NCBI GenBank assembly: GCA_016938475.1
Contig: JAFGUP010000071.1
Coordinates: forward strand, 1-46,860
DNA length: 46,860 bases
Reading direction: 5' to 3'
From: Sphaerochaetaceae bacterium
GTDB taxonomy: Bacteria > Spirochaetota > Spirochaetia > Sphaerochaetales > Sphaerochaetaceae
Under the pieces are notes generated by a model. That model saw only the letters and a program-made list of their open reading frames with translations, ran no database searches and was not told the origin of the DNA. Position 1 is the first letter of the stretch. The number at the start of each line of letters is the position of its first letter. The position numbers and the translations under genes are program-made. Positions 8,429-46,860 of this stretch are shown here, piece after piece.

Positions 8429-9634
8429 TCATGTGAACCGTGCAAGGCCTCCCAGACTGGTCTCCCTGTAGAGAGAGGGGAGTGCCTGCCCGGTTTCCAG
8501 CATCACCTCGGTCACCGTGTCGAAGGAGACTTTGTGCCGCCCATCCGAAAGGAGTGCGAATGAAGCATGATCAAGGGAACGCATCGTCGCGAGTGCGTTG
8601 CGTTCGATACAGGGGATCTGCACAAGACCCATCATCGGGTCACAGGTAAGACCCAGATGGTGTTCAAGGCCCATCTCCGCCGCATACTCTATCTGGTGAA
8701 TACTTCCACCAAGCAGCTGAGCAACCGCGGCCGACGCCATGGCACAGGCCACCCCTATTTCACCCTGACAGCCCACCTCGGCACCGCTGATCGATCCGTT
8801 ATGCTTGGCAAGGTTTCCGATAAGACCGGCAGTAAGAAGCGCTCTGTAGACCTTCATCTCCGAGAGGTGATACTGGTTCTTGATATACAGCAGAACTCCC
8901 GGAAGAACTCCGCAGCTTCCACAGGTAGGAGCTGTGACGATCTTCCCCCCTGAAGCATTCTCTTCGGAAACAGCAAGAGCATAACTGAGTGCACGCGCCG
9001 GTGTTCCCAGAACTCCACCCATATCATTCGCCTGAGCAAAGTACTGACTTGCCTTACGTGGAAGTTTCAGCCCACCGGGAAGGACTCCTTCCTCCTCAAG
9101 ACCCCGGTGGATGGCCTCGACCATGACAGACCAGATCTCTTTCATGTAATCAAGAATCTCTTCCCCCTCATACTTCACAACGAACTCCCACAGTCTGATT
9201 CCTTCCTTGCTGCAGTACCGGAGGATATTGTCCATTCGTGTCAGGTACTGGGGGTAGATGGAATCCTTTCTGTCATCCCTGTCGGATTCACTGAGAACCT
9301 TTCCACCCCCTACACTGTAGTAGGTCTCCCTGCCGATCTCCTGCTCCTGTTCATCGAAGGCGATGAGCGTGAGAGCGTTGGGGTGAAAGGGAAGACTCTC
9401 TTCGGGAAACCAGAGAATCGTGACAGGTTTGCCGAGGGAATTGAAAACATCCCTGATAGCTGTATCGGTAAGGTGCCCCTTTCCTGTTGCTGCAAGAGAG
9501 CCGTAGAGCTTCGCCTGGAACGAGGCTGTATCAGGGTAGAGAGCATGAAAGGTGTTACTTGCATAGCGGGGACCCATCGTGTGTGAAGAAGATGGTCCGT
9601 GTCCAATACGGTAAAGCTCTCTGATTGATTCCAT
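8429..9634 (-). CDS. sdaA: L-serine dehydratase, iron-sulfur type, single chain
   Basis: Deaminates L-serine to pyruvate and ammonia in the cytoplasm using an oxygen-sensitive [4Fe-4S] cluster. It is 401 aa, somewhat shorter than single-chain SdaA of enterobacteria (about 454), with the beta domain first (GPSSSHTMGP near residue 15) and the alpha domain after. Probable cluster cysteines lie in GCQGEIG, LTCDPMMG and PCIERNA; APTCGSCG is also family-typical. No Shine-Dalgarno sequence precedes ATG 9634. A TACACT hexamer ends 6 nt before it, as in other leaderless candidates here. The 9661 lipoprotein gene ends 26 bp upstream. Confidence 0.95.
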   Translation of the reverse strand: MESIRELYRIGHGPSSSHTMGPRYASNTFHALYPDTASFQAKLYGSLAATGKGHLTDTAIRDVFNSLGKPVTILWFPEESLPFHPNALTLIAFDEQEQEIGRETYYSVGGGKVLSESDRDDRKDSIYPQYLTRMDNILRYCSKEGIRLWEFVVKYEGEEILDYMKEIWSVMVEAIHRGLEEEGVLPGGLKLPRKASQYFAQANDMGGVLGTPARALSYALAVSEENASGGKIVTAPTCGSCGVLPGVLLYIKNQYHLSEMKVYRALLTAGLIGNLAKHNGSISGAEVGCQGEIGVACAMASAAVAQLLGGSIHQIEYAAEMGLEHHLGLTCDPMMGLVQIPCIERNALATMRSLDHASFALLSDGRHKVSFDTVTEVMLETGQALPSLYRETSLGGLARFT

Positions 9635-9640
9635 AGCCTG

Positions 9641-9669
9641 AGTGTAACGACTTTTCCCTGTTAAGGGAA
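9641..9669 (-). promoter_or_regulatory. Possible promoter of sdaA
   Basis: On the minus strand TACACT (9646-9641) lies 6 nt before ATG 9634, with only a weak -35 (TTCCCT at 9669-9664) 17 nt upstream. The -10 placement matches other leaderless candidates in the window, but the poor -35 makes this tentative; sdaA may instead be read through from the lipoprotein gene. Confidence 0.35.
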
Positions 9670-10485
9670 GGAGAGTGCTGATCGATACATCGCATGATAC
9701 TCAGCCTGGGTGATCGTGAATATGATATCAGCCGGGCGTACAACGCAGGTGGGAACCTTCTGTTCATCCTCGCTGATGATGATATCAAGGACGAGTTTGA
9801 GGTCATGATTCATAAAGGTGTGAATTCCTGCGGTGAGGGGCGGAAGCTGAACAGGCTGGTAGTCTCCTTTGTAGAACGAAACACCCCGGTACCCGTCTTG
9901 ATGATACCGTCCGGGGGGAATGGACTCAAGCGTGTGAACGTAGCGAATGGAAGCAGAGAGTCCATCACCGTCATACAAACCCGTGACAAGGTCCTGCAGC
10001 AGTGAGGGGTAGTGGATATCATCCACCCTCTTCACATCCTCAGCGATCGCACGATAGGAGAGGTTCTGTATCAGCGGTGACCAGTCCCTGTTTATGCGCT
10101 GAAGATACGAACAGAGAAGACCTTCTTCGCTGTTCAATTCGATCGTACGCCCCTGTTCATCACCGTCGAGACCTCCGCCCAGCGGAGAAAGCTCACCCAG
10201 CGGATATGCGGTGAACAGGATAGTACGTCGTGAAGGTACAAGGAACTTCACTTCCCGCTCTCCCACAGAGAGGGGAACATTCACGAGAGTATCACCTGAG
10301 GTATAGGTGAGCGTATACCACAGCAGTCTGCCACTCACCGTCTCCCAGGTATGTTCATCCGAAAGACTGACCGTGACCAACCTGTCTGAACTGCAGGTAG
10401 TGAGCAGGGAGAGAGACAGAAGGAGAATAAGAAAGAACAGCCGTCCCATACATATACTACGGAAGGCTGTTCGTTTCTCCTTCAT
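9661..10485 (-). CDS. Putative lipoprotein of unknown function (274 aa)
   Basis: The N-terminus has a basic stretch, a hydrophobic core and LLTTC, a lipobox-like site with Cys31 as the acylated residue. Thr at -1 is unusual outside spirochaetes, whose lipoboxes are looser. Lgt, the enzyme that would modify it, is encoded at 27843-28859. The mature part has no recognised domain. Two starts are possible: ATG 10485 (no Shine-Dalgarno, TATCAT ending 4 nt upstream) or ATG 10449, which leaves a typical short signal peptide. It lies between aroF-pheA (61 bp upstream) and sdaA (26 bp downstream). Confidence 0.7.
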   Translation of the reverse strand: MKEKRTAFRSICMGRLFFLILLLSLSLLTTCSSDRLVTVSLSDEHTWETVSGRLLWYTLTYTSGDTLVNVPLSVGEREVKFLVPSRRTILFTAYPLGELSPLGGGLDGDEQGRTIELNSEEGLLCSYLQRINRDWSPLIQNLSYRAIAEDVKRVDDIHYPSLLQDLVTGLYDGDGLSASIRYVHTLESIPPGRYHQDGYRGVSFYKGDYQPVQLPPLTAGIHTFMNHDLKLVLDIIISEDEQKVPTCVVRPADIIFTITQAEYHAMYRSALSFP

Positions 10486-32860: not shown

Positions 32861-32877
32861 ATAGATTGAGGAGCATG

Positions 32878-33465
32878 ATGAAAGACTATACAGAGCGGCA
32901 GAGACAGATCATAGATACATCACTCACCCTCTCATCTCAGGGAGGAATGAATACCCTGACGATCAGGAATATCGCCAGGGACCTCGGCGTCACCGAACCA
33001 GCCATCTACCGGCACTTTGACTCGAAACACGAGATCCTTGTTGCGATGCTCGATGTCCTGCAGTCGACAATCTCTCCCCACTTCATGCTGCTCAACAGGA
33101 AAGAGGTATCGACCGAATCCTTCTTCATCCCGTTCTTCACTGCTCTGTTCACGACGATCGAGGAGAACCCGGCTTTCGCCCTGTTCATCTTCAGTGAGGA
33201 GGTCTTCCACTCGGATGCGACTCTGCGGCCTCACTTGAGTGAACTGCTCGAGAAGATCCTGAAGAATCTTGAGACGCTCTGTGCAGGATTACAGAGTTCG
33301 ACGCATATCTCAGACAGCTTAACGGCTTCAGATATTGCCTTTATCATCCTTTCCACCGTCCGTCTGACAGTCACCAGATGGAATGTCGCACAGGAGAAGT
33401 ATTCCCTTGTCTCACAGGTGGAGCAGCTCAACCGCCTATTATGTACCGTACTGTTCAACCGGTAG
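32878..33465 (+). CDS. TetR/AcrR family transcriptional regulator
   Basis: 195 aa. The N-terminal helix-turn-helix has LTIRNIARDLGVTEPAIYRHFDSK (residues about 24-47), typical of TetR proteins; the C-terminal ligand-binding and dimer region is helical and divergent. ATG 32878 or ATG 32875 are the candidate starts; GAGGAG (32868-32873) gives a sensible 4-nt spacing only for 32878. It lies 59 bp before the RND gene, and the same operator precedes both, so it probably represses itself and the exporter operon until a ligand binds. The ligand is unknown. Confidence 0.92.
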   Translation: MKDYTERQRQIIDTSLTLSSQGGMNTLTIRNIARDLGVTEPAIYRHFDSKHEILVAMLDVLQSTISPHFMLLNRKEVSTESFFIPFFTALFTTIEENPAFALFIFSEEVFHSDATLRPHLSELLEKILKNLETLCAGLQSSTHISDSLTASDIAFIILSTVRLTVTRWNVAQEKYSLVSQVEQLNRLLCTVLFNR

Positions 33466-33488
33466 GTATATTTTTTTCACCAAAGATG

Positions 33489-33503
33489 TTAGTTATCGTT
33501 AAC
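33489..33503 (+). promoter_or_regulatory. TetR operator 2, before the RND operon
   Basis: TTAGTTATCGTTAAC, inside a better inverted repeat with TAGTTA and TAACTA arms around TCGT (33490-33505). It differs from operator 1 at two of 15 bases. TATATA (33504-33509), a possible -10 box, abuts it, and AAGGAG (33509-33514) lies between that box and ATG 33525. No clear -35 was identified. Confidence 0.7.
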
Positions 33504-33524
33504 TATATAAGGAGTGTATAGAGA

Positions 33525-35840
33525 ATGAAAAGAATCACACAACGGCCATTGCCGGTGCTGCTCGCTATTCTGCTGATCAGCATTCTGTTCGTCCTGCAGA
33601 TCGCTGACAATGCACAGCTGGAAACCGACCTTGATGAGTACATGCCATCAGAGCATCCGGCCTTTGTCGCAAGTGACGCAGCAAGTGAAGAGTTCGGGAT
33701 CACCGACTCGATCATGATCGCCATCGAGCATCCCGAGAGCATCTATAATGTGGGCACCTTCGATAAGATACGGGAGCTCTCTGAACAGCTCCCCGAAGTA
33801 TTCGAGGAACTGCTTGATGAAGATATCACCAGCCTGTATCACGCTGACAATATCACCGGCAGTGAATGGGGTCTTGAAGTGGGTCCGTTCTTTGAAGAGA
33901 CCCCGGAAAGTCAGGAAGAGTTCGATCTCCTGAGAGAACAGGTTGCCTCCAATGAGATGGTGTACGGAAGCGTGGTCAGTCTCGATGAGACCAGTACCAT
34001 CATCGTATTCCCCCTCGATGAGGAAGCCGATACGAAAACGCTCGAGAAGGAACTCACCGAGTACATCTCCCGGTATGAAGGCCCCGAGAACATCTATGTT
34101 GCGGGAAGACCTATCGTCGAGGGCGCTCTGGCTTCCCTCGGGCCTGCCGATATGGCACGTATGTTCCCCATCGTCATGATCACCATGATCATTCTGCTGT
34201 ACATCCTTCTCAGAAGCATACGCCACACGATCCTGAACATGGTGATCGTCCTTCTAGGAACCATCGCAGCCTTCGGGACCATGGCCATGTTCAAGATACC
34301 GGTCTATTCCGTTGACACGATGATCCCGGTGATGCTGATAGCGATCGGAGTCGCCTACGGGATCCACATGCACAACACCATCATGTATCTGGTCAGGAAG
34401 AACTCTCTGATCACAAAAGACCAGTTGATCAATGAGACACTCTCACAGATGACCCGACCGGTTGTCATGGCGGCTATCACCACTGCGATCGGCTTCTCCG
34501 CTCTCATGACCTCGCAGGTTCTCCCCGTGCGGTATTTCGGACTGTTCTCATCCATCGGAGTCCTCAGCGAGATGCTGTTCGCCTTACTTCTCTTCCCCCT
34601 CTCCATCCGGCTCCTCGGTGTACCGAAGACGGGCAGGAAACGGGAGGATGAAGACCTTGAGCTGCCTGTGCAGGGGAAGATCAAGGATCATCGATGGACC
34701 GTATATATCATGAACAAGGGGAAGTTGATCACCCTGATCGCCGTCATCGTTGCCGTCCTTGGCGGAGTCGGTGCCACGAAGATCTGGATCGACACCAGCT
34801 TCCTTGCCAACTTCGAAGAGGATCATCCTATCAGTGTCACAGACAGGTTCGTGAATGAAACCTTTGCAGGAACGAGCTCGATAAACATCATCCTGTCCGG
34901 TGAACAGCCCGATACGTTCAAGACCCCCGAAGCTCTCTCACTCATGGCTGAGATGCAGGACGCATTCGTAGAGGATCCGATGATCGGAGGCGCTTTCAGC
35001 CTCACTGACTTCATCAAGAGGATGAACTTCGTTCTCAATGAAGAACAGGATGAGTATTTCTCCATCCCTGACAACCAGGAACTCATTGCCCAGTACCTGC
35101 TTCTGTACGATATGAGTGGAGACCCCGAGACGATCGCGAAAGTCGTGGACTATGACTATCAGAAGACGAATATGACGCTGCAGCTGAAGAGTGATTCATC
35201 GAGTCTGATCGAGAAGATCATCGCTCAGGTCGCGACCTATGAAGAAGACTTCGGGGACCTGGGTATCACCATCACCTACGCAGGAAGTGGCTACACCTCC
35301 TTCATCTTCGCAGACCTCCTGATGGAAGGACAGGTTCTCTCCCTCGGTATCTCCTTCCTGATAGTTGCCGTACTGCTCACTCTCGTGTTCAAGAGTATGT
35401 TCATCGGAATAGCCGGGACGACACCCATCGCCATCACTGCAACGGTCAACTTCGGTGTGATGGGCCTCCTGGGGATCCCTCTCAGCTCCGCGACAGCTCT
35501 CATCTCATCGATCGCGATCGGGATCGGAGTGGACTATGCCATCCACCTCATCGAACACTACATGAACCGGAGGAACGAAGGGTTCTCCATCAGCGAGACC
35601 GTGAACGAGACGATATCGCACACAGGGAAAGCGATCATCTTCAATGCCATAGCCGTTATGGGAGGATTCATCGTTCTGACCTTCAGCGTCTTCCCGCCGA
35701 ACAGACAGGTGGGCTCACTCATCGCCCTCAATATGGTGCTCAGTGCACTCGGGACCCTCTCAGTCCTTCTCGTGACACTCGTGCATCTCGACAAAAAACA
35801 CAGGCTGCCCATCAAGACCGCAGCTGCCAATAAGGAGTAA
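33525..35840 (+). CDS. RND superfamily exporter (MmpL/HAE3 type)
   Basis: A 771-aa inner-membrane protein with the two-fold RND layout: TM1, a first periplasmic loop of about 190 residues (acidic, Glu-rich), TM2-6 (about 210-370), a cytoplasmic linker, TM7, a second loop, and TM8-12. ATSQ/IGVAYGIHMHN in TM4 and IGIGVDYAIHLIEHY in TM10 are family-typical and carry the acidic or polar residues used in proton coupling. The size and single-chain pseudo-dimer fit HAE3/MmpL lipid- or hydrophobe-exporting proteins rather than the about 1050-aa drug pumps. No membrane-fusion protein gene is nearby. It overlaps functionally with the LolA-like and OMP genes behind it. Confidence 0.92.
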   Translation: MKRITQRPLPVLLAILLISILFVLQIADNAQLETDLDEYMPSEHPAFVASDAASEEFGITDSIMIAIEHPESIYNVGTFDKIRELSEQLPEVFEELLDEDITSLYHADNITGSEWGLEVGPFFEETPESQEEFDLLREQVASNEMVYGSVVSLDETSTIIVFPLDEEADTKTLEKELTEYISRYEGPENIYVAGRPIVEGALASLGPADMARMFPIVMITMIILLYILLRSIRHTILNMVIVLLGTIAAFGTMAMFKIPVYSVDTMIPVMLIAIGVAYGIHMHNTIMYLVRKNSLITKDQLINETLSQMTRPVVMAAITTAIGFSALMTSQVLPVRYFGLFSSIGVLSEMLFALLLFPLSIRLLGVPKTGRKREDEDLELPVQGKIKDHRWTVYIMNKGKLITLIAVIVAVLGGVGATKIWIDTSFLANFEEDHPISVTDRFVNETFAGTSSINIILSGEQPDTFKTPEALSLMAEMQDAFVEDPMIGGAFSLTDFIKRMNFVLNEEQDEYFSIPDNQELIAQYLLLYDMSGDPETIAKVVDYDYQKTNMTLQLKSDSSSLIEKIIAQVATYEEDFGDLGITITYAGSGYTSFIFADLLMEGQVLSLGISFLIVAVLLTLVFKSMFIGIAGTTPIAITATVNFGVMGLLGIPLSSATALISSIAIGIGVDYAIHLIEHYMNRRNEGFSISETVNETISHTGKAIIFNAIAVMGGFIVLTFSVFPPNRQVGSLIALNMVLSALGTLSVLLVTLVHLDKKHRLPIKTAAANKE

Positions 35841-35844
35841 CACC

Positions 35845-36624
35845 ATGAAAGCAAAAAGAATCATAGGGGGACTTATCCTCCTCATCGCAACCACATCATT
35901 GTACGCTGTTCCCATCACAGGTGAGCAGATCATGCAGAACGTATATGACCGGGACACCGGCAACAACATGCAGGCCAACCTCAGGATGGAGATCATGAAC
36001 TCGAGGGGACAGGTCAGAGAGCGGGACATCATCCAGGTGAGTCAGGAGGATCAGGACGGTATCGAGAAGAAACTGATGTTCTTCCTCTCGCCGGCCGATG
36101 TGAAAGACACCGGATTCCTGAGCATCAGCTATCCGGATGACAGAGATGACGACCAGTGGATCTATCTGCCGGCGCTCAGAAGAGTGAAAAGGATCGCAGC
36201 GAAGAACCAGAACGACTCGTTCATGGGCAGCGACTTCACCTACGATGATATGGGGACAAGGAACCCCAACAAGGACGTTCATACCCTTCTCGGGACAACA
36301 ATGATCGATGGACAGGAATGCTATATCGTCGAGAGTATCCCGAAGGTGTCGAACAAGGAGTTCGACAGGACTGTCACCTACATCGTGAAGGACCAATGGT
36401 ACGGACTGAACAAGGAGTATCACTACAAGGGTGAAATGGTGAGAGAGCTGACCATCAACAGTCTCGAGTCGATCAACGGCATCTACGTCATCAACGACAT
36501 GGTGATGGAGAACCATGACAAGGGAACTCAGACACGTATCACCATGAGTGATGTGAGTTTTGACAACGACCTCGACTCGGGCATATTCACCGACCGACAG
36601 CTGAAAATGGGACCGAGATTCTAA
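35845..36624 (+). CDS. Outer-membrane lipoprotein-sorting (LolA-like) protein
   Basis: A 259-aa periplasmic protein with an N-terminal signal peptide ending near LYAVP. The remainder resembles the LolA-like fold often paired with MmpL/RND exporters: LRMEIMNSRGQVRERD, QWIYLPALRRVKRI, FMGSDFTYDDM and a beta-rich C-terminal half. Such proteins are thought to ferry lipid or lipoprotein across the periplasm. It has no lipobox Cys. It starts 4 bp after the RND stop with AAGGAG upstream, so it belongs to the same transcript and probably receives the exporter's cargo. Confidence 0.88.
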   Translation: MKAKRIIGGLILLIATTSLYAVPITGEQIMQNVYDRDTGNNMQANLRMEIMNSRGQVRERDIIQVSQEDQDGIEKKLMFFLSPADVKDTGFLSISYPDDRDDDQWIYLPALRRVKRIAAKNQNDSFMGSDFTYDDMGTRNPNKDVHTLLGTTMIDGQECYIVESIPKVSNKEFDRTVTYIVKDQWYGLNKEYHYKGEMVRELTINSLESINGIYVINDMVMENHDKGTQTRITMSDVSFDNDLDSGIFTDRQLKMGPRF

Positions 36625-36637
36625 GGAGAACACAACA

Positions 36638-37888
36638 ATGACCACAAAGAACAGAAAACGAACAATACTATCAGTACTGCTGACTCTTGCAGTGACCGTC
36701 ATCACTCTGCCGGCATCAGATATATCATTCACGGGATTGTCACAGACGAGACTTGCACTCGCTTTTGAAGATGCGGCTATCCCCTATTATGAGCAGAAGC
36801 TCGATATGCACATCGACATCTACAAACATATGAGTCACCTGTTCATCCAGCCGTACCTTTCGGTCGATCAGGATGAGGATATCGAGTTCGCCATGAGAGA
36901 ACTCTATGCCGATTTCTATCTTGATGCGATGGATATCAGAGTGGGCAAACAGATCATCGCGACGGGACAGGCTGACGGACTGTACCTGACCAATATGATA
37001 AGCCCCCTCAATATGAGCGATTTTCTGCTCAGTGAGACCCATGAACTGCAGATGGGAGTTCCTGCGGTGAAAGCGAGCTACTACTACGATGCCTTCACCT
37101 TCACAGCGCTGTGGATCTCTCATTTCGTACCCGCAGAGACCTTCTCCAGTGATTCCTACTGGTTCAACAGCCCGACGTTCCTGAGTGGAGGCTCGGTGAA
37201 TATGGCAGATCCCGAAACTCCGGAACTCTCCATCGAAAACAGCGAGGTCTTCGGTAAGGCAAGTTACTTCGGCGCCCTTGCTACCGTTGAAGTGCTCGGC
37301 GGCTACACCTGGACCGACACACCCTATGCCTTCTCCATCGATACCGGCACCGGCACCATCACTACCGAGTACGGTCGATACGGTGTCCTCGGGGCAGCCG
37401 TATCGGCTCCTGTCTCCTCTGCGGTACTGAGAACCGAGATCCTCGCATCATTCGACAAGCCTTTTGCTTCGGTGGTTCCGGGAACGCCTCCTTCTGTCAG
37501 TGTCGAAGAACACTCTGTGATCGATGGCATTCTCGGTATCGATATCGATCTGGCAGGATTCTCCCTCTCAGCTCAGTACCGGGGAACGTACATGACAGAT
37601 CACAACGAGACACTCATCACTGACGGTAAGCCGGCGAAGGAGTATGCTCAGCTGGCAACGCTCAACATCCAGAAGAGTTTCCTCGATGACACCCTGACAG
37701 CCGGTATCTTCACGATCGTCGAATTCGATGAGTTCAACATACTGGTCAGGCCCTCTGTCACCTACATCATCGAAGATGCCGTTGAGATTGAGGCTGAACT
37801 CATCCTGTTTGCCGGAGATGACGAGGGAACCTACGGAGTCTACAATGACAGGTCGGTCACATCCCTCTCTCTCAACTATTACTTCTAG
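36638..37888 (+). CDS. Outer-membrane beta-barrel protein of the RND cassette
   Basis: 416 aa. A signal peptide (TILSVLLTLAVTVITLPAS) is followed by alternating amphipathic strands rich in Tyr, Thr and Asp, and the chain ends SLSLNYYF with a C-terminal Phe, the signal recognised by the BAM complex. The length would suit about 16 or more strands. It starts 13 bp after the LolA-like gene and ends the TetR-RND-LolA-OMP cassette. A role as outer-membrane acceptor or exit pore for the exported molecule is inferred from position. No named family is assigned. Confidence 0.82.
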   Translation: MTTKNRKRTILSVLLTLAVTVITLPASDISFTGLSQTRLALAFEDAAIPYYEQKLDMHIDIYKHMSHLFIQPYLSVDQDEDIEFAMRELYADFYLDAMDIRVGKQIIATGQADGLYLTNMISPLNMSDFLLSETHELQMGVPAVKASYYYDAFTFTALWISHFVPAETFSSDSYWFNSPTFLSGGSVNMADPETPELSIENSEVFGKASYFGALATVEVLGGYTWTDTPYAFSIDTGTGTITTEYGRYGVLGAAVSAPVSSAVLRTEILASFDKPFASVVPGTPPSVSVEEHSVIDGILGIDIDLAGFSLSAQYRGTYMTDHNETLITDGKPAKEYAQLATLNIQKSFLDDTLTAGIFTIVEFDEFNILVRPSVTYIIEDAVEIEAELILFAGDDEGTYGVYNDRSVTSLSLNYYF

Positions 37889-38696: not shown

Positions 38697-38724
38697 TTGA
38701 CATACTTATTATAAGATATATAAT
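38697..38724 (+). promoter_or_regulatory. Consensus promoter of the 38761 cluster
   Basis: TTGACA (38697-38702), 16 nt, TATAAT (38719-38724): both hexamers are perfect. GAGG lies 8 nt before ATG 38761. Such a strong promoter would be expected to need repression, and it overlaps the inverted repeat at 38704-38728. Confidence 0.85.
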
Positions 38725-38728
38725 AAGT
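38704..38728. promoter_or_regulatory. Perfect inverted repeat over the -10 box, probable operator
   Basis: Arms ACTTATTATA (38704-38713) and TATAATAAGT (38719-38728) around a 5-nt centre; the right arm contains the whole -10 box. CTTAT/ATAAG half-sites recur within it (38705-38715) and again as CTTATAAG (38729-38736). The regulator is not encoded in the window. Confidence 0.7.
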
Positions 38729-38760: not shown

Positions 38761-39882
38761 ATGATCAATGTCGGATTTGCATTCAATTTCAATGTTCAAC
38801 GATGTGAAGTGGAAGTAGGTGACGAGAAGCAGATTCTCGATAGAGGATACCATCAGCTTCTGGACCTTTTCATCACACATAAACTCAAGGCGAACCTGTT
38901 TCTCTCCGGTTTCACCACAACCCTCCTTCAGGAGATGGATCCGTCACTCATCACACGTATCAAGGATCGAGTCGGCAAAGAGTTCCACCTTGGAACCTAT
39001 ACCTACACGCATCCGATTCCCCAGCTCCTTACCTCGGAGGAGTTCGAGCGGCAGATGGCAAGAGGCCTTGAGATTGACCGGGAAGTTTTGGATTCACAGA
39101 CAAAAGGCTTCCTTCCACCGGAGTTTGCCTTCACCACGGAGATGGGAAATATCCTTCATGATCAGGGAGTACAATGGATTATAGCACTCTCTTCACAGAT
39201 CAAAAAGGGCCTCGATATCACAGGAATCGATCAGGATCCGTACATTCCCTGTAAGACCGACCTCGGTCAGGGCCGGACACTCATCGCTGTTCCCGCGATG
39301 TACCAGCTTCCCGATACACCTGCCCGGTTCTTTAAACTCATGATGAAGGGGAAACTGGACGTGGATACGGTCATCGATGGTATACGGAAGTTCCATGAAC
39401 TGCACCCAGATACCTTGCTGCTGTTCAAGAGAGATGCCGAGACGATTTTCATCGACTATCTGAACAGCGGGTTTGAAAAGACCTACGAGGTCATGGATGA
39501 GTTTCTAACGAAGCTCAAGGCACTTGATTTCGTGAATCCAGTCTGGATAGAAGATATCCTGAGCCAGCAGCGTGAGTACACCACCATCACACTGCCCGAC
39601 TATCTTGGAAATACAACTCTCGAAACCTTCACAGAAGGTGATGCTGCTCCGATCTGGGACACCACCCGCCACGTGCGGGAAACAATCGCGAAAGCACAGC
39701 AGGAAGGAAAGGATCAGGATCTTATTGATCAGGCCTGGGAACACCTCATGCTCTCACACAACTCGGACGGGAGGATCGGGTACTGGTTTAGTGAATGGAA
39801 TCCGGGTGAACATACGGTCGCACCTTCACGCAGACGCTTTGTCGAGGAGCATCTTCAGGCCGCTCTCGAGCTCCTTGAGTAG
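38761..39882 (+). CDS. GH57-like / polysaccharide-deacetylase-fold protein
   Basis: 373 aa without a signal peptide, so probably cytoplasmic. It resembles the (beta/alpha)7 barrel of GH57 enzymes: YTYTHPIPQLL near residue 81-91, GFLPPEFAF with Glu121 in the position of the GH57 nucleophile, LLFKRDAETIF with Asp225 as a candidate acid, and a terminal region with WEHLMLSHNSDGRIGYW like the family's C-terminal helices. The usual N-terminal HQP motif is replaced by FAFNFN, so activity and substrate are uncertain. It leads a co-directional cluster whose phosphohexomutase follows 11 bp later, suggesting intracellular sugar metabolism. Confidence 0.7.
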   Translation: MINVGFAFNFNVQRCEVEVGDEKQILDRGYHQLLDLFITHKLKANLFLSGFTTTLLQEMDPSLITRIKDRVGKEFHLGTYTYTHPIPQLLTSEEFERQMARGLEIDREVLDSQTKGFLPPEFAFTTEMGNILHDQGVQWIIALSSQIKKGLDITGIDQDPYIPCKTDLGQGRTLIAVPAMYQLPDTPARFFKLMMKGKLDVDTVIDGIRKFHELHPDTLLLFKRDAETIFIDYLNSGFEKTYEVMDEFLTKLKALDFVNPVWIEDILSQQREYTTITLPDYLGNTTLETFTEGDAAPIWDTTRHVRETIAKAQQEGKDQDLIDQAWEHLMLSHNSDGRIGYWFSEWNPGEHTVAPSRRRFVEEHLQAALELLE

Positions 39883-39893
39883 GTAGATGATAG

Positions 39894-41684
39894 ATGGCAT
39901 ACATCGTCTTCGATCCTGACATGAGCATTGTCCCGGCAATCTCTTCTCGTTCGTTACTCATCCAGGGGGGAGATCCCTGCCCCCTTTGGGAACGAATCCT
40001 GTCAGTTCTCGAATCCCGTTTTCCCCCTGACAGCATGTTCGTGTTCTCACGATTAAGAGCTCTTCTTGACGAACAGGAGGTACATACGGATCAGGAGATG
40101 TACACTCACTGCGAACGGATGCAATACAGGCTTCAAGGGACCGATGGAGTCAGGGGTGTCGTGCGATACGGAACAGACAGCCCTGATCCGGTACGATTTT
40201 TCATGAAGGAGAGAGTACTTACCGGAGACTTCTGTTTTCACTACACAAGAGGGTTCCTGAACATGCTGCAGGAGGAAGGTGGAGCTGCTGTAAAAGAAGT
40301 AGCCTTCGGCGAGGACGGTAGAGACTATCACCGGGGAGGAGAACTGAAAAACATGATCCTCCGGGCCCTTGCATCTGAGGGGACCACGGGAATCGACCTG
40401 GGAATCGTTCCGACACCATATCTGTCTCAATACAGTCAAGCCCACAGCATTCCTGCGATAATGCTTACCGCAAGTCATAATCCGGAAAGCCACAACGGTA
40501 TCAAGCTTTTCATTGATGGAAGAAAACTCTACCCTTCAGGTACGCTCGGTGAATACCGTCTTTCGTCAATCATCCTGCGGGCACCGCAGGCAGGTATACA
40601 AGAGAACAGTACGCTCCCATCGGTGATTACATCGAAGATTCATAATCAGATCGTTGATGAAATGATATTCGAGTTAAGAATGCTGGATGCTTCGTTTTTC
40701 GAAAACACTCCACTCCTTGTCGACTGTGCGAACGGAGCGGCAAGCAGTTACTTCATCGATGCTCTCAAAGGGGCGGGGATTGCTCATCTGCCGCTCTTCT
40801 GCCGTCAGGGCAGGTACCTGATCAATGACGGGTGCGGAGTAGCCTCGATCGAAGAGATTCAGCATCAGGAACAGGACATACTTCAGAGCCATCCTACCGT
40901 CCAAGCTCTTGTGGATGAAGTCGAACACAGAAAGTCTGTAGAAGGATACGCGATAGTCCTTGACGGGGATGGGGACAGAGCGTTCATCATTCGGTATCGG
41001 AAAGGAAGTGTGACTGTCCTGAATGGAGACCACCTGGGATATCTGATTATTCGCTCTCTCAAAGAGAAACACAGGGTCTTTCACACTATCGAAAGTGCCT
41101 ATGTGATGAAAACGGTACTGCACGCGACAGGCTCAGATGAGCCTGTAGTTACCTGTGTGGGAGATAGATGGCTCGCCCGTGAGATGTTCGACAGGGAAGA
41201 AAATGCCGTGGGGTTCGAGTCCTCGGGGCATGTGATGTTCCCACAGGATATCCGAGATACAGAAGGGGCGGGACTCAGGAACTATTCCGGTAACGGGATG
41301 AGGACAGCGGTATATGCTCTGAGAGAGCTGATCACCGGAGGGATAGATCTCAATCTGTTCGATACCTATGAATTGCAGAGTACCTATAGGAAAGGAGAGC
41401 TGGACAAATTCTTCAGGGAATCGACCCTCTGGAAGAAGATTCGCTCTATCTTCATCGCCAGTTCATCCTGCACAGCACAGGAGTTCGAATTTGCTCACGA
41501 GCCAGACCTTCTGTTCTTTTTCCTTGCTAATGGGGAGGAAGAGATCGGATGGTGTTATGTAAGACCCTCCGGCACAGAGTCCAAACTCACACTACGGATC
41601 AGTGTCACCTCTCAGTACAGAGCGATTGCTCAGGAAGTCATGCATACAGTCACACAGGAAATGAATACGACATTTCCCTTGTAG
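39894..41684 (+). CDS. Alpha-D-phosphohexomutase (phosphogluco/phosphomannomutase family)
   Basis: 596 aa. It interconverts hexose 1- and 6-phosphates via a phosphoserine. The active-site loop is TASHNP with Ser194, metal binding is DGDGDRA (Asp357, 359, 361), sugar binding is GFESSGH, and phosphate binding is RPSGTESK. The family's N-terminal motif, usually at the very start, is QGTDGVRG at 81-88; the preceding 80 residues are an unfamiliar extension. The internal spacing is also longer than in typical members of about 450-580 aa. The specific sugar cannot be told from sequence. It is 11 bp after the GH57-like gene. Confidence 0.9.
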   Translation: MAYIVFDPDMSIVPAISSRSLLIQGGDPCPLWERILSVLESRFPPDSMFVFSRLRALLDEQEVHTDQEMYTHCERMQYRLQGTDGVRGVVRYGTDSPDPVRFFMKERVLTGDFCFHYTRGFLNMLQEEGGAAVKEVAFGEDGRDYHRGGELKNMILRALASEGTTGIDLGIVPTPYLSQYSQAHSIPAIMLTASHNPESHNGIKLFIDGRKLYPSGTLGEYRLSSIILRAPQAGIQENSTLPSVITSKIHNQIVDEMIFELRMLDASFFENTPLLVDCANGAASSYFIDALKGAGIAHLPLFCRQGRYLINDGCGVASIEEIQHQEQDILQSHPTVQALVDEVEHRKSVEGYAIVLDGDGDRAFIIRYRKGSVTVLNGDHLGYLIIRSLKEKHRVFHTIESAYVMKTVLHATGSDEPVVTCVGDRWLAREMFDREENAVGFESSGHVMFPQDIRDTEGAGLRNYSGNGMRTAVYALRELITGGIDLNLFDTYELQSTYRKGELDKFFRESTLWKKIRSIFIASSSCTAQEFEFAHEPDLLFFFLANGEEEIGWCYVRPSGTESKLTLRISVTSQYRAIAQEVMHTVTQEMNTTFPL

Positions 41685-41692
41685 GGTAGTAA

Positions 41693-41709
41693 AAACCGTG
41701 TAACGGTTT
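41693..41709. promoter_or_regulatory. 17-bp palindrome before the ABC importer operon
   Basis: AAACCGT (41693-41699) and ACGGTTT (41703-41709) around GTA, between the phosphohexomutase stop and the GGAGG of the solute-binding protein. Size and symmetry fit a LacI/GntR-type operator. No T-tract follows, so termination is unlikely. No matching regulator gene is in the window. Confidence 0.55.
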
Positions 41710-41730
41710 AAGATATTATTGGAGGTTTAT

Positions 41731-43029
41731 ATGAAAAGAAACGCGATTGTGTTGATGGTTTCTCTGTCTCTCATCCTTTTCTCACAGGTACTGTTCGCAG
41801 CCGGTCAAGCAGACCAGGCTCAGAAGGGAGATGCCGGTGAAGTGACAGAAATCGTCTACTGGCAGTATTTCTATGAAACGAAATCGAAGCTGATGGATAA
41901 GCTCATCGAGATGTTCGAAGCGGAACATCCTGATATCAGGGTTGTCCAGCAGACCTTCCCGTATGAACAGTACAATACCAAGGTAGCATCCTCCGTTCCC
42001 TCGGGGACAGGACCGAACGTCATCAATCTCTACTATGGATGGCTCCCTACCTATATTGACTCCGGGTACCTTCAGCCTCTGCCGACCTCGCAGTTCCCTA
42101 ACGAGAAGATAGAACAGGAATTCTTCCCGCTCGTACGTGCTGCTAAATTCGACGGCTCCTACTACGCCCTGCCGACCGCGGTCCGTTCACTTGCCCTCTT
42201 CTGGAACAAGGATCTGTTCAAGGAAGCCGGACTCGACCCGGAACGTCCGCCCAGAACGGTCGAAGAATTGGTAGATTTCGCAGAAATGCTTACGATAACC
42301 GACAAGAACGGCAATTACCTGCAAACAGGCCTTACCCTTGAGCTTCGGGCACAGATGCACCACTGGGTACGTGAAGTACTTATCAGACAGATGGGTGGAA
42401 CTCCCTATTCGGATGACAATAGAAGTGTCACCTACGACAGTCAGGCAGGTTACGACGCATTCACCTTTTTCACAGACCTTCATCTAAAGAACAAGGTAGG
42501 AATGCCGAACTTCATGACCGATGATGTCACAGCATTCAAATCAGGTGCCATGGCAATGACCATCGACGGATCGTTCCGTCTCGGGACTCTTGATGGAGTG
42601 CAGGGTCTTAACTACGGCGTGACCGAACTGCCGAGTATGAACGGTATCTCATCAAGCTTCGCAAGCTTCTGGGCAAACGGTATCACTAGTTTCACGACCG
42701 GCAAAGAACTTGAAGCATCCTTGAAGTTCCTCGAATTCCTCACCTCGGACGAGGTGATGTCGATGTGGCTCGATGCGATAGGCGAACTCCCTGCAAAGCA
42801 GGCTCTCGCTCTCACTGATGAGTTCAGGAACAACCCTAAATACGGGCCGTTCATCAGAAGCCTCGAGTATGCACATGCAACGAAATTCATCGATGAAAGC
42901 GTCCAAAGAAAAGTCTGGATCGATGCCTATGATCAGGTTGTCTTGAACAATGCATCTATTCGGGATGCTGTGAACGAAGCAGCTGCAACCGAACAGAAGA
43001 TGCTCGATTCCTACTACAATTCAAAATAA
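41731..43029 (+). CDS. ABC importer solute-binding protein (carbohydrate type)
   Basis: A 432-aa periplasmic binding protein of the family-1 extracellular solute-binding class. The signal peptide MKRNAIVLMVSLSLILFSQ ends near LFAAGQA. The mature protein starts with the typical ITYWQYF-like strand (IVYWQYFYETKS) and contains FPYEQYNTKV and ALFWNKDLFKEAGLDPERPP, hallmarks of sugar-binding members. There is no lipobox Cys, so it is probably soluble. ATG 41731 has GGAGG 5 nt upstream; an upstream in-frame TTG lies inside that site. The two permease genes follow. The sugar is unknown. Confidence 0.93.
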   Translation: MKRNAIVLMVSLSLILFSQVLFAAGQADQAQKGDAGEVTEIVYWQYFYETKSKLMDKLIEMFEAEHPDIRVVQQTFPYEQYNTKVASSVPSGTGPNVINLYYGWLPTYIDSGYLQPLPTSQFPNEKIEQEFFPLVRAAKFDGSYYALPTAVRSLALFWNKDLFKEAGLDPERPPRTVEELVDFAEMLTITDKNGNYLQTGLTLELRAQMHHWVREVLIRQMGGTPYSDDNRSVTYDSQAGYDAFTFFTDLHLKNKVGMPNFMTDDVTAFKSGAMAMTIDGSFRLGTLDGVQGLNYGVTELPSMNGISSSFASFWANGITSFTTGKELEASLKFLEFLTSDEVMSMWLDAIGELPAKQALALTDEFRNNPKYGPFIRSLEYAHATKFIDESVQRKVWIDAYDQVVLNNASIRDAVNEAAATEQKMLDSYYNSK

Positions 43030-43045
43030 GATTCAGAATGTTGTT

Positions 43046-43069
43046 CGGGCAGACCGCAAACGGTGCCCG
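43046..43069 (+). other. Intercistronic hairpin between binding protein and permease genes
   Basis: CGGGCA (43046-43051) pairs with TGCCCG (43064-43069), with an inner CCG/CGG and a CAAA loop. There is no T-tract. GC-rich stems at this place commonly protect the 3' end of the abundant binding-protein mRNA or partly terminate transcription. Confidence 0.65.
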
Positions 43070-43099
43070 GGCAGCTGTGTTCTTCTCAGAGGGGGGCTC

Positions 43100-43999
43100 A
43101 TGAAGCGACCGCAGTCATACACCATTGAACACACGAAAAGGATATGGGCATATACATTCCTTGTTGTACCTGTTCTATTCTATCTCACCATACGATTCTA
43201 TCCCACTTTTTATGCCTTCTTCCTCTCACTTACCGACTGGGACATTGTGTCGCGGGATAAGAATTTCATAGGGCTGACAAACTATAGAAACCTGTTTCAG
43301 GACCCGATCTTCTGGAAAACGCTTTCCAACACAGGCTTCTACGTGTTGTACGGACTTCCGATAAGCCTTCTCTCAGGTTTCATCCTGGCCTATAACATTG
43401 ACAGGCTGAAAAAGGGAGAAGGAGTGTTCAAAGCGCTCTACTTCCTCCCCTATATCACCTCGATGGTAGCAATTGCATGGGTGTGGAGGTGGCTCTATCA
43501 GCCTGCACCGATCGGTGTGTTCAACAAGATTCTCATCTCGATCGGTCTTCCTCAACAGAAGTTTCTCTTCAGTCAGACACAGGCCCTTCCCTCGATCCTT
43601 GCACCTACCATCTGGGCCGATGTCGGTTTCCAGCTGATCATCTTCCTTGCCGGCCTGAAAGGGATCAGCAGGCAATACTATGAAGCCGCCGAAATCGATG
43701 GTGCTGACAACTGGGATCAGCTTCGGTATATCACCCTTCCCCTTCTCAAGCCCACCATCGTCTTCCTCATCATTACGGGTACGATACGGTACCTCAGGAT
43801 CTTCACGCAGGTTCTCAACATGTCCTATCAGGGGGAAGGGGGTCCTCTCAACTCAACCAAGCCTCTTGTCCTGTATATCTACCACAGTGCATTCCAGCAG
43901 TTCGACATGGGGTATGCCGCCGCAATGACGGTAATCCTGTTCCTGATCATTCTCATGATCACGCTCATTCAGTTAAAGGTGATGAAAAGTGAAGACTAA
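43100..43999 (+). CDS. ABC sugar permease, MalF/UgpA type
   Basis: A 299-aa inner-membrane permease with six transmembrane segments. The cytoplasmic EAA loop reads EAAEIDGADNWDQLRYITLP, the contact site for the ATPase. GAGGGG lies just upstream of ATG 43100. It overlaps the second permease gene by 11 bp. With the 41731 binding protein it forms a CUT1-type importer. No ATPase gene is present in the visible cluster, so a shared MsmK/UgpC-like ATPase encoded elsewhere probably energises it. Confidence 0.94.
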   Translation: MKRPQSYTIEHTKRIWAYTFLVVPVLFYLTIRFYPTFYAFFLSLTDWDIVSRDKNFIGLTNYRNLFQDPIFWKTLSNTGFYVLYGLPISLLSGFILAYNIDRLKKGEGVFKALYFLPYITSMVAIAWVWRWLYQPAPIGVFNKILISIGLPQQKFLFSQTQALPSILAPTIWADVGFQLIIFLAGLKGISRQYYEAAEIDGADNWDQLRYITLPLLKPTIVFLIITGTIRYLRIFTQVLNMSYQGEGGPLNSTKPLVLYIYHSAFQQFDMGYAAAMTVILFLIILMITLIQLKVMKSED

Positions 44000-44810
44000 C
44001 TACAAACCGATAGATGTACTGCGCCCTGTGATACTGATCATCCTGGGCCTGCTGATGCTATTTCCGTTCGCATGGATGATCGCAACGAGTTTCAAACAGG
44101 GAAGAGATGTCTTTTCCCTCTCGATCATTCCCGAGAATCCGACCTTCGCAAATTATCTTAACATCTTTTCCAACAGCAATTTCCCTTTCTGGTTCCTCAA
44201 CTCTCTTATAGTCGGTCTTGCAGTTACTGCATCCGTACTCTTCTTTGATTCCCTTGTCGGGTTCACCCTGAGCAAATATTCATTCAGAGGGAAAAAAATC
44301 ATCTTCATCCTTATCCTATCTACCATGATGATACCGACCGAGATGCTCGTAATCCCCTGGTACATCATGTCCAACGAACTCCACTGGGTCGACACCTACT
44401 GGGGAGTGATGTTCCCCGGTCTGATGTCCGGTTTCGGAACTTTCCTGATGCGGCAGTTCTTTCAGACCGTTCCCGAAGACCTTCTTGATGCCGGTCGTAT
44501 AGACGGACTGAACGAGTTCTACCTCTTCTCCAGAATAGCTATTCCTCTGGTCAAGCCGGCTCTCTCAGCTCTGGCGATATTCAGTTTCATCGGAAACTGG
44601 AATGCCTTCATGTGGCCACTGATTGTAAGTAATAAAGTGACGATGTATACCCTTCCGGTCGGCTTATCCTTCTTCAACGGGGAGTTTCAGAGTCAGTGGG
44701 AGATGGTGATGACAGGAGCTTCGATCGCCACGATCCCGGTCTTCTTTATTTTCATCCTCTTTCAGAGGCAGATTATACAAGGTATCGCCCTTACAGGAGT
44801 GAAAGGGTGA
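43989..44810 (+). CDS. ABC sugar permease, MalG/UgpE type
   Basis: 273 aa, six transmembrane segments, with the EAA-type loop DAGRIDGLNEFYLFSRIAIP. It starts with GTG at 43989 inside the end of the first permease gene (11-bp overlap), a coupled arrangement typical of this pair. PFAWMIATSFK near the N-terminus and FQRQIIQGIALTGVKG at the C-terminus are characteristic of the family. The heterodimeric partner is the 43100 gene. Confidence 0.94.
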   Translation: MKTNYKPIDVLRPVILIILGLLMLFPFAWMIATSFKQGRDVFSLSIIPENPTFANYLNIFSNSNFPFWFLNSLIVGLAVTASVLFFDSLVGFTLSKYSFRGKKIIFILILSTMMIPTEMLVIPWYIMSNELHWVDTYWGVMFPGLMSGFGTFLMRQFFQTVPEDLLDAGRIDGLNEFYLFSRIAIPLVKPALSALAIFSFIGNWNAFMWPLIVSNKVTMYTLPVGLSFFNGEFQSQWEMVMTGASIATIPVFFIFILFQRQIIQGIALTGVKG

Positions 44811-44846
44811 TAGATTTTTCAAACTCACGCATAATGAGGTACACCT

Positions 44847-45761
44847 ATGATTCAAAACACGCAGGTCTTTGATTTCCATTGCCATTTCCCCGTCGACTCT
44901 CCATGGTTTCCCGACTACGCCATGCCGGGCAAAGTGTCTTTCGATGATACGGGGAGCCGTGACCATCACGAACAGTGGAGAAAGGCATTCAATTTTTCCG
45001 AACCCGATCAACCGATGGGTGACAGGGAAAGCGCCGATCGTTATATACAGGATATGAATGAAAAGGGAATCGAGAGGATCAACTTCGTTTCCGGTGGAGG
45101 AAACAAGCGACTGGCGGACATCGTTGCGATGTATCCACAGCGTTTCACCGGTTTTGCACACCATCACCCGGAGGTTCCCGATGCGGCCGATCAGCTTGAG
45201 ACAGCACTGAGAGATTATCATCTCAAGGGGTATAAGCTGCTGGGTCCTCTGATCGATACCCATCTCAGTGACCGCTCGTTCTACCCTCTCTGGGAGATCT
45301 GCGAAACATACCAGGTCCCTGTCCTCATACATTTCGGCCTCCTCGGCGCTGCCGGAGGAACCCCTCATGGAACGAATATCTCTCCCATGAGTATCGCACA
45401 GGCCTCCCGTGATTTCCCGAAACTGAATTTCATAGTCCCCCATTTCGGCTGTACTCACATGCAGGACCTCCTGCAGGTGTGCTGGACACGTCCCAATGTC
45501 TATGTCGACACCTCGGGTTCGAATCAGTGGATACGGTGGATGCCCTACCCTCTCACGCTCGAGGATGTCATCCAGAAGTATGTGCAGACGGTCGGTCCGG
45601 GCCGCATCATCTTTGCTACCGACAGCAGCTATTTCCCACGTGGATTTGCAAAAATCTACCTTGAAGAACAGCATAAACTGTTCCGATTCGCAGGGCTCGA
45701 TGATGATGAGATAGACATGGTATTCAACCGCAATGCACGGCATCTGATTGGAGAAGTATGA
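44847..45761 (+). CDS. Metal-dependent hydrolase, amidohydrolase-2 family
   Basis: A 304-aa cytoplasmic TIM-barrel protein. Metal ligands expected for the family are visible: His11 and His13 in FDFHCHF, His162 in LIHFG, His199 in VPHFGC, and Asp259 in FATDSS. Members include decarboxylases, lactonases and hydrolases, so the reaction is not assigned. GAGG lies upstream of ATG 44847. It follows the second permease by 36 bp and overlaps the next gene (ATGA), so it probably acts on the imported compound or a product of it. Confidence 0.85.
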   Translation: MIQNTQVFDFHCHFPVDSPWFPDYAMPGKVSFDDTGSRDHHEQWRKAFNFSEPDQPMGDRESADRYIQDMNEKGIERINFVSGGGNKRLADIVAMYPQRFTGFAHHHPEVPDAADQLETALRDYHLKGYKLLGPLIDTHLSDRSFYPLWEICETYQVPVLIHFGLLGAAGGTPHGTNISPMSIAQASRDFPKLNFIVPHFGCTHMQDLLQVCWTRPNVYVDTSGSNQWIRWMPYPLTLEDVIQKYVQTVGPGRIIFATDSSYFPRGFAKIYLEEQHKLFRFAGLDDDEIDMVFNRNARHLIGEV

Positions 45762-46860
45762 ACGGACTGTCAGGCACCCGAAGGAATCTGATACGTATCG
45801 CCCGAGAAGAGATGCAGCTCACGATGGGTTGTACCGATCCTGTTGCAATAGCTTACAGTGCCAATACGGCGATCCATCAGTATTGCGAAAAAAATGGGGT
45901 TTCCCACTCCTCAGCCATCGGTTCGATCCAATCGATAGAGTTGGAACTTGACAGGAACCTGTTCAAGAATGCCTCGTATGCCCGTATACCCAACACTGAC
46001 GGGAAGGGAATCAGCCTTGCACTGTTTCTCGGCATGTCTCTTGAAAGACCCTTCTCCCCTCTGCTCATATTCGACATGGTCACACGATCCCTCGTAGATC
46101 AATCTGAAGATCTGGAGCGGATACTTCCTTTGAACATCACCATACGTCATGACAAGGATCATGTGTTCTGTTCCACAAGGCTAACCTTCCGAGACTCGAA
46201 AGAGTCCGTTGCATCCCTGGAATATCATCATGATACGATGGTATTCCGGTCCTGCTGTGAGAATACGCTGGAACAGAATACCTATTACCCTGAAAGTGAT
46301 CAGGAAGAGCCTTTCGAGGAACTTCCGCTTGATGAGGTTCTCTCTCTCATCGATACAATTCCACTTGATCAGATCGAGTTTATCGCTGACGGGTTCGACC
46401 ATAATATGAGAGCAGTCGGCAGAGGAAACGATGAAATAGCCCTATCGGTGTTTGATCAGTCGTCTCTCATCGGACACGCCAGACGTGATATCGGTCAGGC
46501 GACGCTTAACCGGATGAATGGTCTGGATGTGCCGATCATGGCATGTGGAGGTTCAGGGAACCATGGGATTACCTTCTTCATCTCTTTGCAGTATGGCTCA
46601 AACCTGTTGTCCGGGAAAACCCCTCACCTGCATCATATAACTCTCCTCGGTCTCTATCTGTTGCATATCATCAAGATACGGACCGGGATCCTGACCCCGA
46701 TGTGCGGCTGCGCGATCAGCAGTGCAATGGCTGTGGCAGCATCTCTGGTATGGGCACAGACACATGAGGAGAAGAAGGTGATCATCAGCATGAACTATAT
46801 ACTGAACACCCTGGCAGGCCTTGCCTGTGACGGAGCAAAACCCTCGTGCTATCTCAAGAC
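45758..46860 (+). CDS. UPF0597 / L-cysteine desulfidase-like protein (partial, 3' end beyond window)
   Basis: The frame is open from ATG 45758 to the window end (367 codons), with GAGAAG just upstream and a 4-nt overlap with the hydrolase gene. Family signatures are clear: GCTDP near residue 25 (GCTEP in most members), ACGGSGNHGI, MCGCAISSA and ACDGAKPSC, whose Cys residues would bind an Fe-S cluster. Relatives include archaeal L-cysteine desulfidase and YhaM/CyuA, and the fold is related to the serine dehydratase alpha domain. Being in a sugar-type operon suggests a different substrate, perhaps another amino or hydroxy acid; this is inference. Confidence 0.85.
   Translation, partial: MNGLSGTRRNLIRIAREEMQLTMGCTDPVAIAYSANTAIHQYCEKNGVSHSSAIGSIQSIELELDRNLFKNASYARIPNTDGKGISLALFLGMSLERPFSPLLIFDMVTRSLVDQSEDLERILPLNITIRHDKDHVFCSTRLTFRDSKESVASLEYHHDTMVFRSCCENTLEQNTYYPESDQEEPFEELPLDEVLSLIDTIPLDQIEFIADGFDHNMRAVGRGNDEIALSVFDQSSLIGHARRDIGQATLNRMNGLDVPIMACGGSGNHGITFFISLQYGSNLLSGKTPHLHHITLLGLYLLHIIKIRTGILTPMCGCAISSAMAVAASLVWAQTHEEKKVIISMNYILNTLAGLACDGAKPSCYLK

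Follow-up and report, generated by a model that had tools for sequence, protein, structure and literature searches.

What substrate is taken up and degraded by a gene cluster that couples a sugar-type importer to a metal-dependent hydrolase and an Fe-S-type enzyme? The question is raised by the right-hand end of a contig from a Sphaerochaetaceae bacterium, where seven co-directional open reading frames (ORFs), six complete and the seventh cut by the contig end, join a CUT1 ABC importer to a GH57-like enzyme, a phosphohexomutase, an Amidohydro_2 enzyme and a UPF0597 protein. The window analysed is the whole contig (C240, 46860 bases), which belongs to a 3.07-Mb genome in 395 contigs (G000). The cluster represents a real and conserved catabolic module that probably has a single regulator. 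We propose an operon dedicated to catabolism and controlled by a single ROK-family repressor, which is predicted to break down an acidic glycoside of an amino sugar that bears an amino acid, a proposal whose chances we consider evenly balanced. A substrate combining a sugar with an amino or acidic part had already been suggested by the sequence-only reading of this DNA, and it remains the best reading. The features of the region, with L, G and C numbers denoting loci, genomes and contigs throughout, are as follows.

38761-39882, + strand: GH57-like enzyme, predicted alpha-glycosidase, possibly a phosphorylase (Pfam, alignment, AlphaFold2 model, fold comparison)
39894-41684, + strand: phosphohexomutase; phosphoglucosamine mutase is the top NCBIfam match, below cut-off
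41731-43029, + strand: CUT1 substrate-binding protein (Pfam, relatives)
43100-43999, + strand: CUT1 permease 1 (Pfam)
43989-44810, + strand: CUT1 permease 2 (Pfam)
44847-45761, + strand: Amidohydro_2 enzyme, cross-phylum core of the module (Pfam, alignment, model)
45758-46860, + strand: UPF0597 / SDH_alpha-like Fe-S enzyme, truncated by the contig end (Pfam)
38697-38724, + strand: putative promoter TTGACA-16-TATAAT of the operon (12 of 12 consensus positions)
38704-38728, no strand: palindrome 1, a 25-bp putative operator, probably for the ROK regulator, conserved at the cluster in relatives
41693-41709, no strand: palindrome 2, not conserved, probably no operator (scan of relatives)

ORF and Pfam analysis bears out the gene arrangement and the union of importer, metal hydrolase and Fe-S-type enzyme that had been read from the sequence. 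Matches were obtained to GH57 (55.1 bits), PGM_PMM_I (68.6), SBP_bac_8 (142.4), BPD_transp_1 (46 and 65), SDH_alpha (72) and Amidohydro_2 (PF04909; 115.7 bits versus a cut-off of 26.4). The two permease genes overlap by 11 nt and the amidohydrolase and UPF0597 genes by 4 nt; the binding-protein frame is open from a TTG at 41719, the better start being the ATG at 41731 behind GGAGG. Extending the contig to the right, as the sequence-only reading had proposed, led to contig C297. A search of the same genome with the full-length UPF0597 homologue of L046 located the C-terminus of the truncated protein at the extreme end of C297, on the minus strand (expect value (E) 9e-4), followed by an EamA-type exporter (L147:11747-12700, minus strand; top model 62 bits, under its cut-off) and a ROK regulator (L147:10541-11740, minus strand). 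The two contig ends share no overlap, and comparison with L046 shows that about 18 UPF0597 residues (400-417) are absent between the pieces. Because L045, L046, L047 and L048 also have the order UPF0597, EamA, ROK, the full gene order is most likely GH57, mutase, binding protein, two permeases, amidohydrolase, UPF0597, EamA and ROK, in which we infer the junction between C240 and C297.

Comparison of this neighbourhood across spirochaetes, also advised by the earlier reading, indicates that the genes form one set. When 61 genomes were searched at E 1e-20 (G000 together with 60 relatives), exactly six had the amidohydrolase, and the GH57-like protein was present in those six and no others, the two lying no more than about 7 kb apart in all of them. 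Identities to the window proteins, where measured, are 57-81% for the binding protein, permeases, amidohydrolase and GH57-like protein, and UPF0597 lies within the cluster in three of these six genomes. The cluster is rare in the phylum. The two other genomes of the same genus lack the amidohydrolase and the GH57-like protein, and in a separate phylum sample of 296 genomes (E 1e-60) GH57 was found in two and the amidohydrolase in three, both GH57 genomes carrying the amidohydrolase. Three further spirochaete loci (L055, L056 and L057) harbor GH57 together with a pair of distinct amidohydrolases that share 51-53% and 26-29% identity with that of the window, with a divergent importer alongside.

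Palindrome 1 is perfect, with 10-nt arms, and spans the promoter ahead of the GH57 gene; promoter-like matches over the whole region are no commoner than in shuffled sequence (5 versus a mean of 9.3). With at most two mismatches, this palindrome recurs upstream of the GH57 gene in L040, L041, L044, L047 and L053, and in L048 of a GH57 gene that is broken. Where the GH57, binding-protein and mutase genes form separate units, in L044 and L053, all three carry the palindrome; besides the site of GH57, it is found before the binding-protein gene (3 and 1 mismatches, respectively) and at the 5' end of the mutase gene on the opposite strand (2 and 3 mismatches), the last site of L053 lying inside the longest reading of the ORF. 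Weak forms (5-6 mismatches) are present in L042, L043 and L050, and none was found at up to six mismatches in L147 or L148. As a control, three Markov resamplings per locus at the same tolerance gave zero sites in 16 of the 17 loci tested and a mean of 0.33 in L044. Genome-wide scans at up to three mismatches gave matches in seven of ten genomes. G000 (3.07 Mb), G034, G039, G061 and G062 have a single site each, located at the cluster. In each of G020 and G065 the cluster holds three sites, before the GH57, binding-protein and mutase genes, with three further three-mismatch sites elsewhere in G020.

Palindrome 2 (AAACCGTGTAACGGTTT, 7-nt arms) has no resembling sequence before the binding-protein gene in the five relatives scanned; the palindromes that L042 and L043 have at this place, with 7-8-nt arms, are unrelated to it. 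The sequence-only reading took the two palindromes to imply separate control of the two halves of the cluster. Both palindromes exist, but separate control is rejected, since only that at 38704-38728 is conserved and it lies on all the split units; for the same reasons a single regulator appears likely. The ROK regulator of C297 best matches NagC (120.5 bits, under the equivalog cut-off of 650) and is, by this score, a ROK protein and not NagC itself. It probably binds the 25-bp palindrome. Sequence comparison shows, or at least strongly implies, that these genes are one co-inherited and co-regulated unit. ROK regulators of sugar operons are well documented, and the cluster shares with the ROK-regulated CUT1 operons described in Thermotoga (ChiR/chitobiose-nag, TreR; PMC3750489) the ROK regulator, a local operator, an ABC sugar importer and an intracellular glycosidase, whereas the amidohydrolase and UPF0597, and the fumarate-type lyase of other phyla, go beyond the gene set described there.

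The CUT1 set consists of the binding protein and two permeases, and no ATPase gene lies within the window cluster, as had been noticed earlier. Two proteins with a MalK-type OB domain are encoded elsewhere in the genome (C196 and C284); the absence is therefore ordinary, and the importer presumably works with a MalK-type ATPase from outside the cluster, perhaps one of these two. The nearest solved binding proteins gave no identification of the ligand.

A wider view of the module comes from a scan with the amidohydrolase alignment, in which the best 80 of 125 relatives represent 13 spirochaete and 67 non-spirochaete loci, the basis of all counts per 80 or 67. The non-spirochaete loci belong mainly to Chloroflexota, Paenibacillus, Cohnella, Clostridia, Micromonospora, Thermoanaerobacter and Trueperaceae, which we take to include members of the Bacillota, the Actinomycetota and, for Trueperaceae, the Deinococcota. 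At least two of the three CUT1 parts are present in 29 of these 67 loci, and 23 have an importer of another type (FbpA/FbpB-like, mostly with an ATPase). A lyase of the argininosuccinate-lyase family is found in 47, all with an importer, and a ROK protein in 36; ROK kinase-like proteins occur in 22 of the 80 loci. GH57 and the mutase are present in none of the 67, and GH57 is absent from all 13 non-spirochaete genomes tested (E 1e-10). UPF0597 adjoins the amidohydrolase in nine of the 80 loci, six from spirochaetes and three from Bacillota. Judging from gene content, the recurring pair is the importer and the amidohydrolase, and the variable part is how the second bond would be broken. In four of the 80 loci (L067, L081, L108 and L124) a FAD-dependent SolA/sarcosine-oxidase-like gene lies nearby, directly behind the permeases in L108, and could act on an N-methylated product. 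In 21 actinobacterial loci (among L074-L121; Micromonospora, Plantactinospora and Saccharomonospora) the amidohydrolase and lyase are accompanied by an FbpA/PhnS-like importer, possibly for a different substrate.

In the amidohydrolase, H11, H13, H162, H199 and D259, the presumed metal ligands by analogy, are invariant in 30 of 30 sequences, as are K130, R230, R253 and R265, which would suit an anionic substrate. Its model (predicted local distance difference test (pLDDT) 92) falls in the ACMSD/COG3618 group. An attempt to choose the reaction from the fold failed, COG3618 (24.3), BB4693 (24.2) and decarboxylases (about 23) being too close together.

The lyases of the module have as top solved match 6rx8/6g3d (250 bits), deposited as argininosuccinate lyase and which we take to be ethylenediaminedisuccinate (EDDS) lyase, ahead of the argininosuccinate lyase 2e9f (215 bits). 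They share the sequence family and the SSIMPQK catalytic motif with both enzymes, but the ArgH signature SGYNRDFQ, presumably marking the arginine site, is found in none of the 49 cluster lyases (that of L063 being a 211-residue fragment without the catalytic motif) versus all 12 ArgH-type matches, labelled as such from similarity and this same motif. By this test they are not argininosuccinate lyases, as the signature is absent from all 49. The loop after the catalytic motif also differs from that of 6rx8. In the 47 lyases with the motif first used for this reading it is of the form [GA]D-x-x-D (26) or WEDSNN or YEDSNN (21, all actinobacterial), in the stretch that carries SGYNRDFQ in the ArgH-type proteins, and the L051 lyase, read separately, has GDIDD; this acidic loop could bind an amine. 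Two related proteins were seen elsewhere. A lyase of the same family in L148 (G004:C1:2672000-2690000; 8547-10073, minus strand) has as neighbours, by eye, a pair of enolase-superfamily proteins, a second CUT1 set, TRAP-type transport genes, an HpcH-like aldolase and a sugar kinase, and looks like another catabolic use of this lyase type. The other, a divergent member in L131 (G062:C189:20617-21972), has the altered loop SSLMPNK and stands, again by eye, beside LacI-like and binding-protein-like ORFs.

The lyase and GH57 are for the most part mutually exclusive in spirochaetes. Twelve genomes were tested for the lyase, ten of them with an intact GH57 gene, and in eight of these ten (G000, G020, G023, G034, G039, G061, G063 and G065) GH57 is accompanied by an ArgH-type lyase match only. 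G066 has the lyase and no GH57; G062, with a broken GH57 gene, has no such lyase, only an ArgH-type match and more distant members. The broken gene (L048, G062:C68:28339-29407) has 10 in-frame stops in its best match, with the operator and the other cluster genes still present, reflecting either decay or poor sequence.

The GH57-like protein retains E121 (FLPPE) and D225 (KRD.E) in 12 of 12 aligned sequences, candidates, by their sequence motifs, for the GH57 nucleophile and acid/base. Its AlphaFold2 model (pLDDT 87) has the barrel and helical C-terminal part of GH57 enzymes and aligns with 7e1y, which we take to be a GH57 amylopullulanase, over 347 of 373 residues (Z 32.8, root-mean-square deviation 2.9), and with 9kyq, GH57 by title, at Z 31.3. 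Presumed GH57 enzymes, some assigned by title, match nearly full length with Z scores from 32.8 down to 24.1, and a further one reaches 21.2; the best fold match outside the family is the deacetylase 3rxz (Z 20.9). The full-length fold is thus common to GH57 amylopullulanases and branching enzymes, from which the window protein differs in its length of 373 residues, 12-16% identity in the fold alignments and another genomic context. It is predicted to act on alpha-glycosides. A CE4 deacetylase identity for this gene (Pfam Polysacc_deac, 28 bits) was also considered and is rejected by the fold comparison; in a profile search of solved sequences, 10 of 12 chains were named deacetylases, the others being 7bly and 8b3s. 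The mutase best matches GlmM models (128.4 and 111.7 bits, cut-offs of 439 and 447.55 not reached; next model 60), and these models match all six members, which also keep TASHNP and DGDGDR. By these scores it is a GlmM-like paralogue, below the equivalog score.

The UPF0597 protein belongs to the family of the L-cysteine desulfidase CyuA, in which Cys23 and Glu25 are described as catalytic, together with three cluster cysteines, and in which Asp replaces the catalytic Glu in a few genomes (PMC12647591). The window protein has MCGC and CDGAKPSC, and L051 alone among ten proteins from the gene cluster lacks the CDGAK..C pattern. In all ten the catalytic Cys is kept, but Glu is changed to Asp, and SGNQG is replaced by SGNHG (7) or SGNLG (3); spirochaete homologues from outside the cluster have Glu in 12 of 14, the motif being absent in two, and SGNQG in 14 of 14. 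In a FastTree phylogeny, the cluster proteins of spirochaetes and Bacillota fall into one group (local support 0.925), and they look like a specialised subfamily. The sequence-only reading had called the protein desulfidase/dehydratase-like; family and cysteines agree, but given Asp in 10 of 10 proteins the plain label of cysteine desulfidase should not be applied. A cysteine-like substrate is possible, although cysteine itself should not be taken for granted.

From these elements a pathway can be proposed. As the sequence shows or at least strongly implies, the CUT1 importer takes up a small solute, presumably with a MalK-type ATPase from elsewhere in the genome, and the module is represented across phyla by the Amidohydro_2 enzyme, which would remove the aminoacyl part. 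The link between the amino sugar and a C4 dicarboxylate would then be cut, by the GH57-like enzyme in most spirochaetes tested and by a fumarate-releasing lyase of argininosuccinate-lyase fold in other phyla. The sugar would enter hexosamine metabolism through the GlmM-like mutase in spirochaetes or ROK kinase-like proteins in Clostridia and Actinobacteria, and the released amino acid would be broken down by UPF0597 in anaerobes or exported by EamA. An amino sugar is suggested by the GlmM-like mutase and NagC-like regulator, and a cysteine- or serine-like product by UPF0597. If GH57 and the lyase act on the same substrate, the bond that they break would be a glycosidic C-O bond as seen from the sugar and a C-O bond of malate as seen from the acid, which would make the substrate an O-glycosyl malate.

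To our knowledge, bacillithiol is the one common metabolite in which an amino sugar, malate and a cysteine-like part occur together, and its alpha linkage would suit GH57. The known bacillithiol amidase, Bca, is a protein of LmbE/PIG-L type and not Amidohydro_2. Bacillithiol is Cys-GlcN-malate, and its amide and its glycoside to malate fit the enzymes predicted for the cluster, as far as bacillithiol metabolism (BshA/B/C and the Bca amidase) is described in PMC4360819. From this composition we tentatively suggest, as a possible but doubtful identification, that bacillithiol or a close relative is scavenged, with import by CUT1 and release of Cys by Amidohydro_2. Malate would then be freed in spirochaetes by a GH57-fold alpha-glucosaminidase, or by a phosphorylase feeding the GlmM-like mutase, and fumarate in Bacillota, Chloroflexota and others by a repurposed enzyme of argininosuccinate-lyase fold; the specialised UPF0597 enzyme would degrade the cysteine. 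The gene bshC was found in only 7 of 30 cluster genomes (in G081 only as two pieces below cut-off), and none of the seven belongs to the 13 spirochaetes of this set, so that turnover of the cell's own bacillithiol is unlikely as the main role; as to bacillithiol as food, the count speaks neither for nor against it. Among the matches listed for the open-licence literature, none dealt with the use of bacillithiol as a nutrient or with this combination of genes.

Several observations weigh against the proposed operon and its substrate. No gene for a hexosamine kinase, which free sugar would call for, was noticed in the window cluster, and among solved structures the amidohydrolase is nearest to decarboxylases, lactonase-like proteins and hydratases, not to amidases. 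With a catalytic base other than that of CyuA, the UPF0597 proteins of the cluster may act on something other than plain cysteine. The replacement of GH57 by the lyase is not clean, as both occur in G004 (at different loci) and G064 (in the same operon). Palindrome 1 was not found at up to six mismatches in L049, L051, L052, L055, L056 and L057, nor at up to three in the genome scans of G004, G023 and G063, and a control pattern read backward gave one match each in G020 and G034 and two in G065. Among the 67 non-spirochaete loci, 15 have no visible importer and 20 no lyase, several contigs ending nearby, and the actinobacterial and Thermoanaerobacter loci have a different importer family. Mutase identity to the window protein is only 29-34%.

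A further difficulty is that the nearest named solved relatives of the binding protein are maltose/acarbose binders (GacH and maltose-binding constructs). Together with the amylopullulanases and branching enzymes around the GH57 model, they speak for an ordinary alpha-glucoside operon, in which a maltose-like oligosaccharide would be imported and cut inside the cell by GH57, the mutase would handle the sugar phosphate, and the amidohydrolase and UPF0597 would be accessory. We consider this unlikely: the cross-phylum core consists of the importer, the amidohydrolase and often the lyase, without GH57 or mutase, a neutral glucan requires neither amidohydrolase nor lyase, and the mutase is closer to GlmM than to glucose-phosphate mutases.

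The lyase allows two other readings. One is the breakdown of Amadori compounds, for example fructosyl-asparagine: the amidohydrolase would deamidate the compound, the lyase would split fructosyl-aspartate into fumarate and fructosamine, and a ROK kinase would phosphorylate the sugar. CUT1 importers for Amadori compounds are known, and the ROK kinase-like proteins of 22 loci would find a role. The similarity of the lyase to 6rx8/6g3d is also consistent with this route, EDDS lyase being described as cleaving N-substituted aspartates with a broad amine range (PMC9486952). Such compounds, however, have no glycosidic bond, which leaves GH57 unexplained, and UPF0597 likewise; no FrlB/FraB-like deglycase was noticed by eye, no search having been aimed at one, and we hold this route to be quite unlikely. 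The same similarity, and the SolA-type oxidase near four of the 80 loci, would fit natural aminopolycarboxylates (EDDS, aspergillomarasmine or opine type) opened by a C-N lyase, with UPF0597 acting on a serine- or diaminopropionate-like product and sometimes an FAD amine oxidase. A sugar is indicated instead by the importer type, the ROK proteins, GH57 and the GlmM-like mutase, and the loop after the catalytic motif is unlike 6rx8, making these substrates improbable. That the genes are mere neighbours with no joint function, as the weak conservation of the mutase might suggest, is contradicted by their co-occurrence and by one operator shared over three separate units in two genomes, and is scarcely credible.

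Ahead of the cluster, at 32866-37888, a TetR-type regulator, an RND/MMPL-like transporter, and LolA-like and beta-barrel-like proteins were recognised by eye in a row.

The module is present, in varying forms, across spirochaetes, Chloroflexota, Bacillota, Actinomycetota and Trueperaceae (presumably Deinococcota), with an operator of its own in spirochaetes, and the protein signatures put automatic labels such as argininosuccinate lyase and cysteine desulfidase in doubt. Whatever the substrate, a short list of directly testable candidates results. Were it bacillithiol, the module would allow a major bacterial thiol that protects the cell to be used as a nutrient, and the GH57, UPF0597 and lyase subfamilies would be tied to defined reactions.

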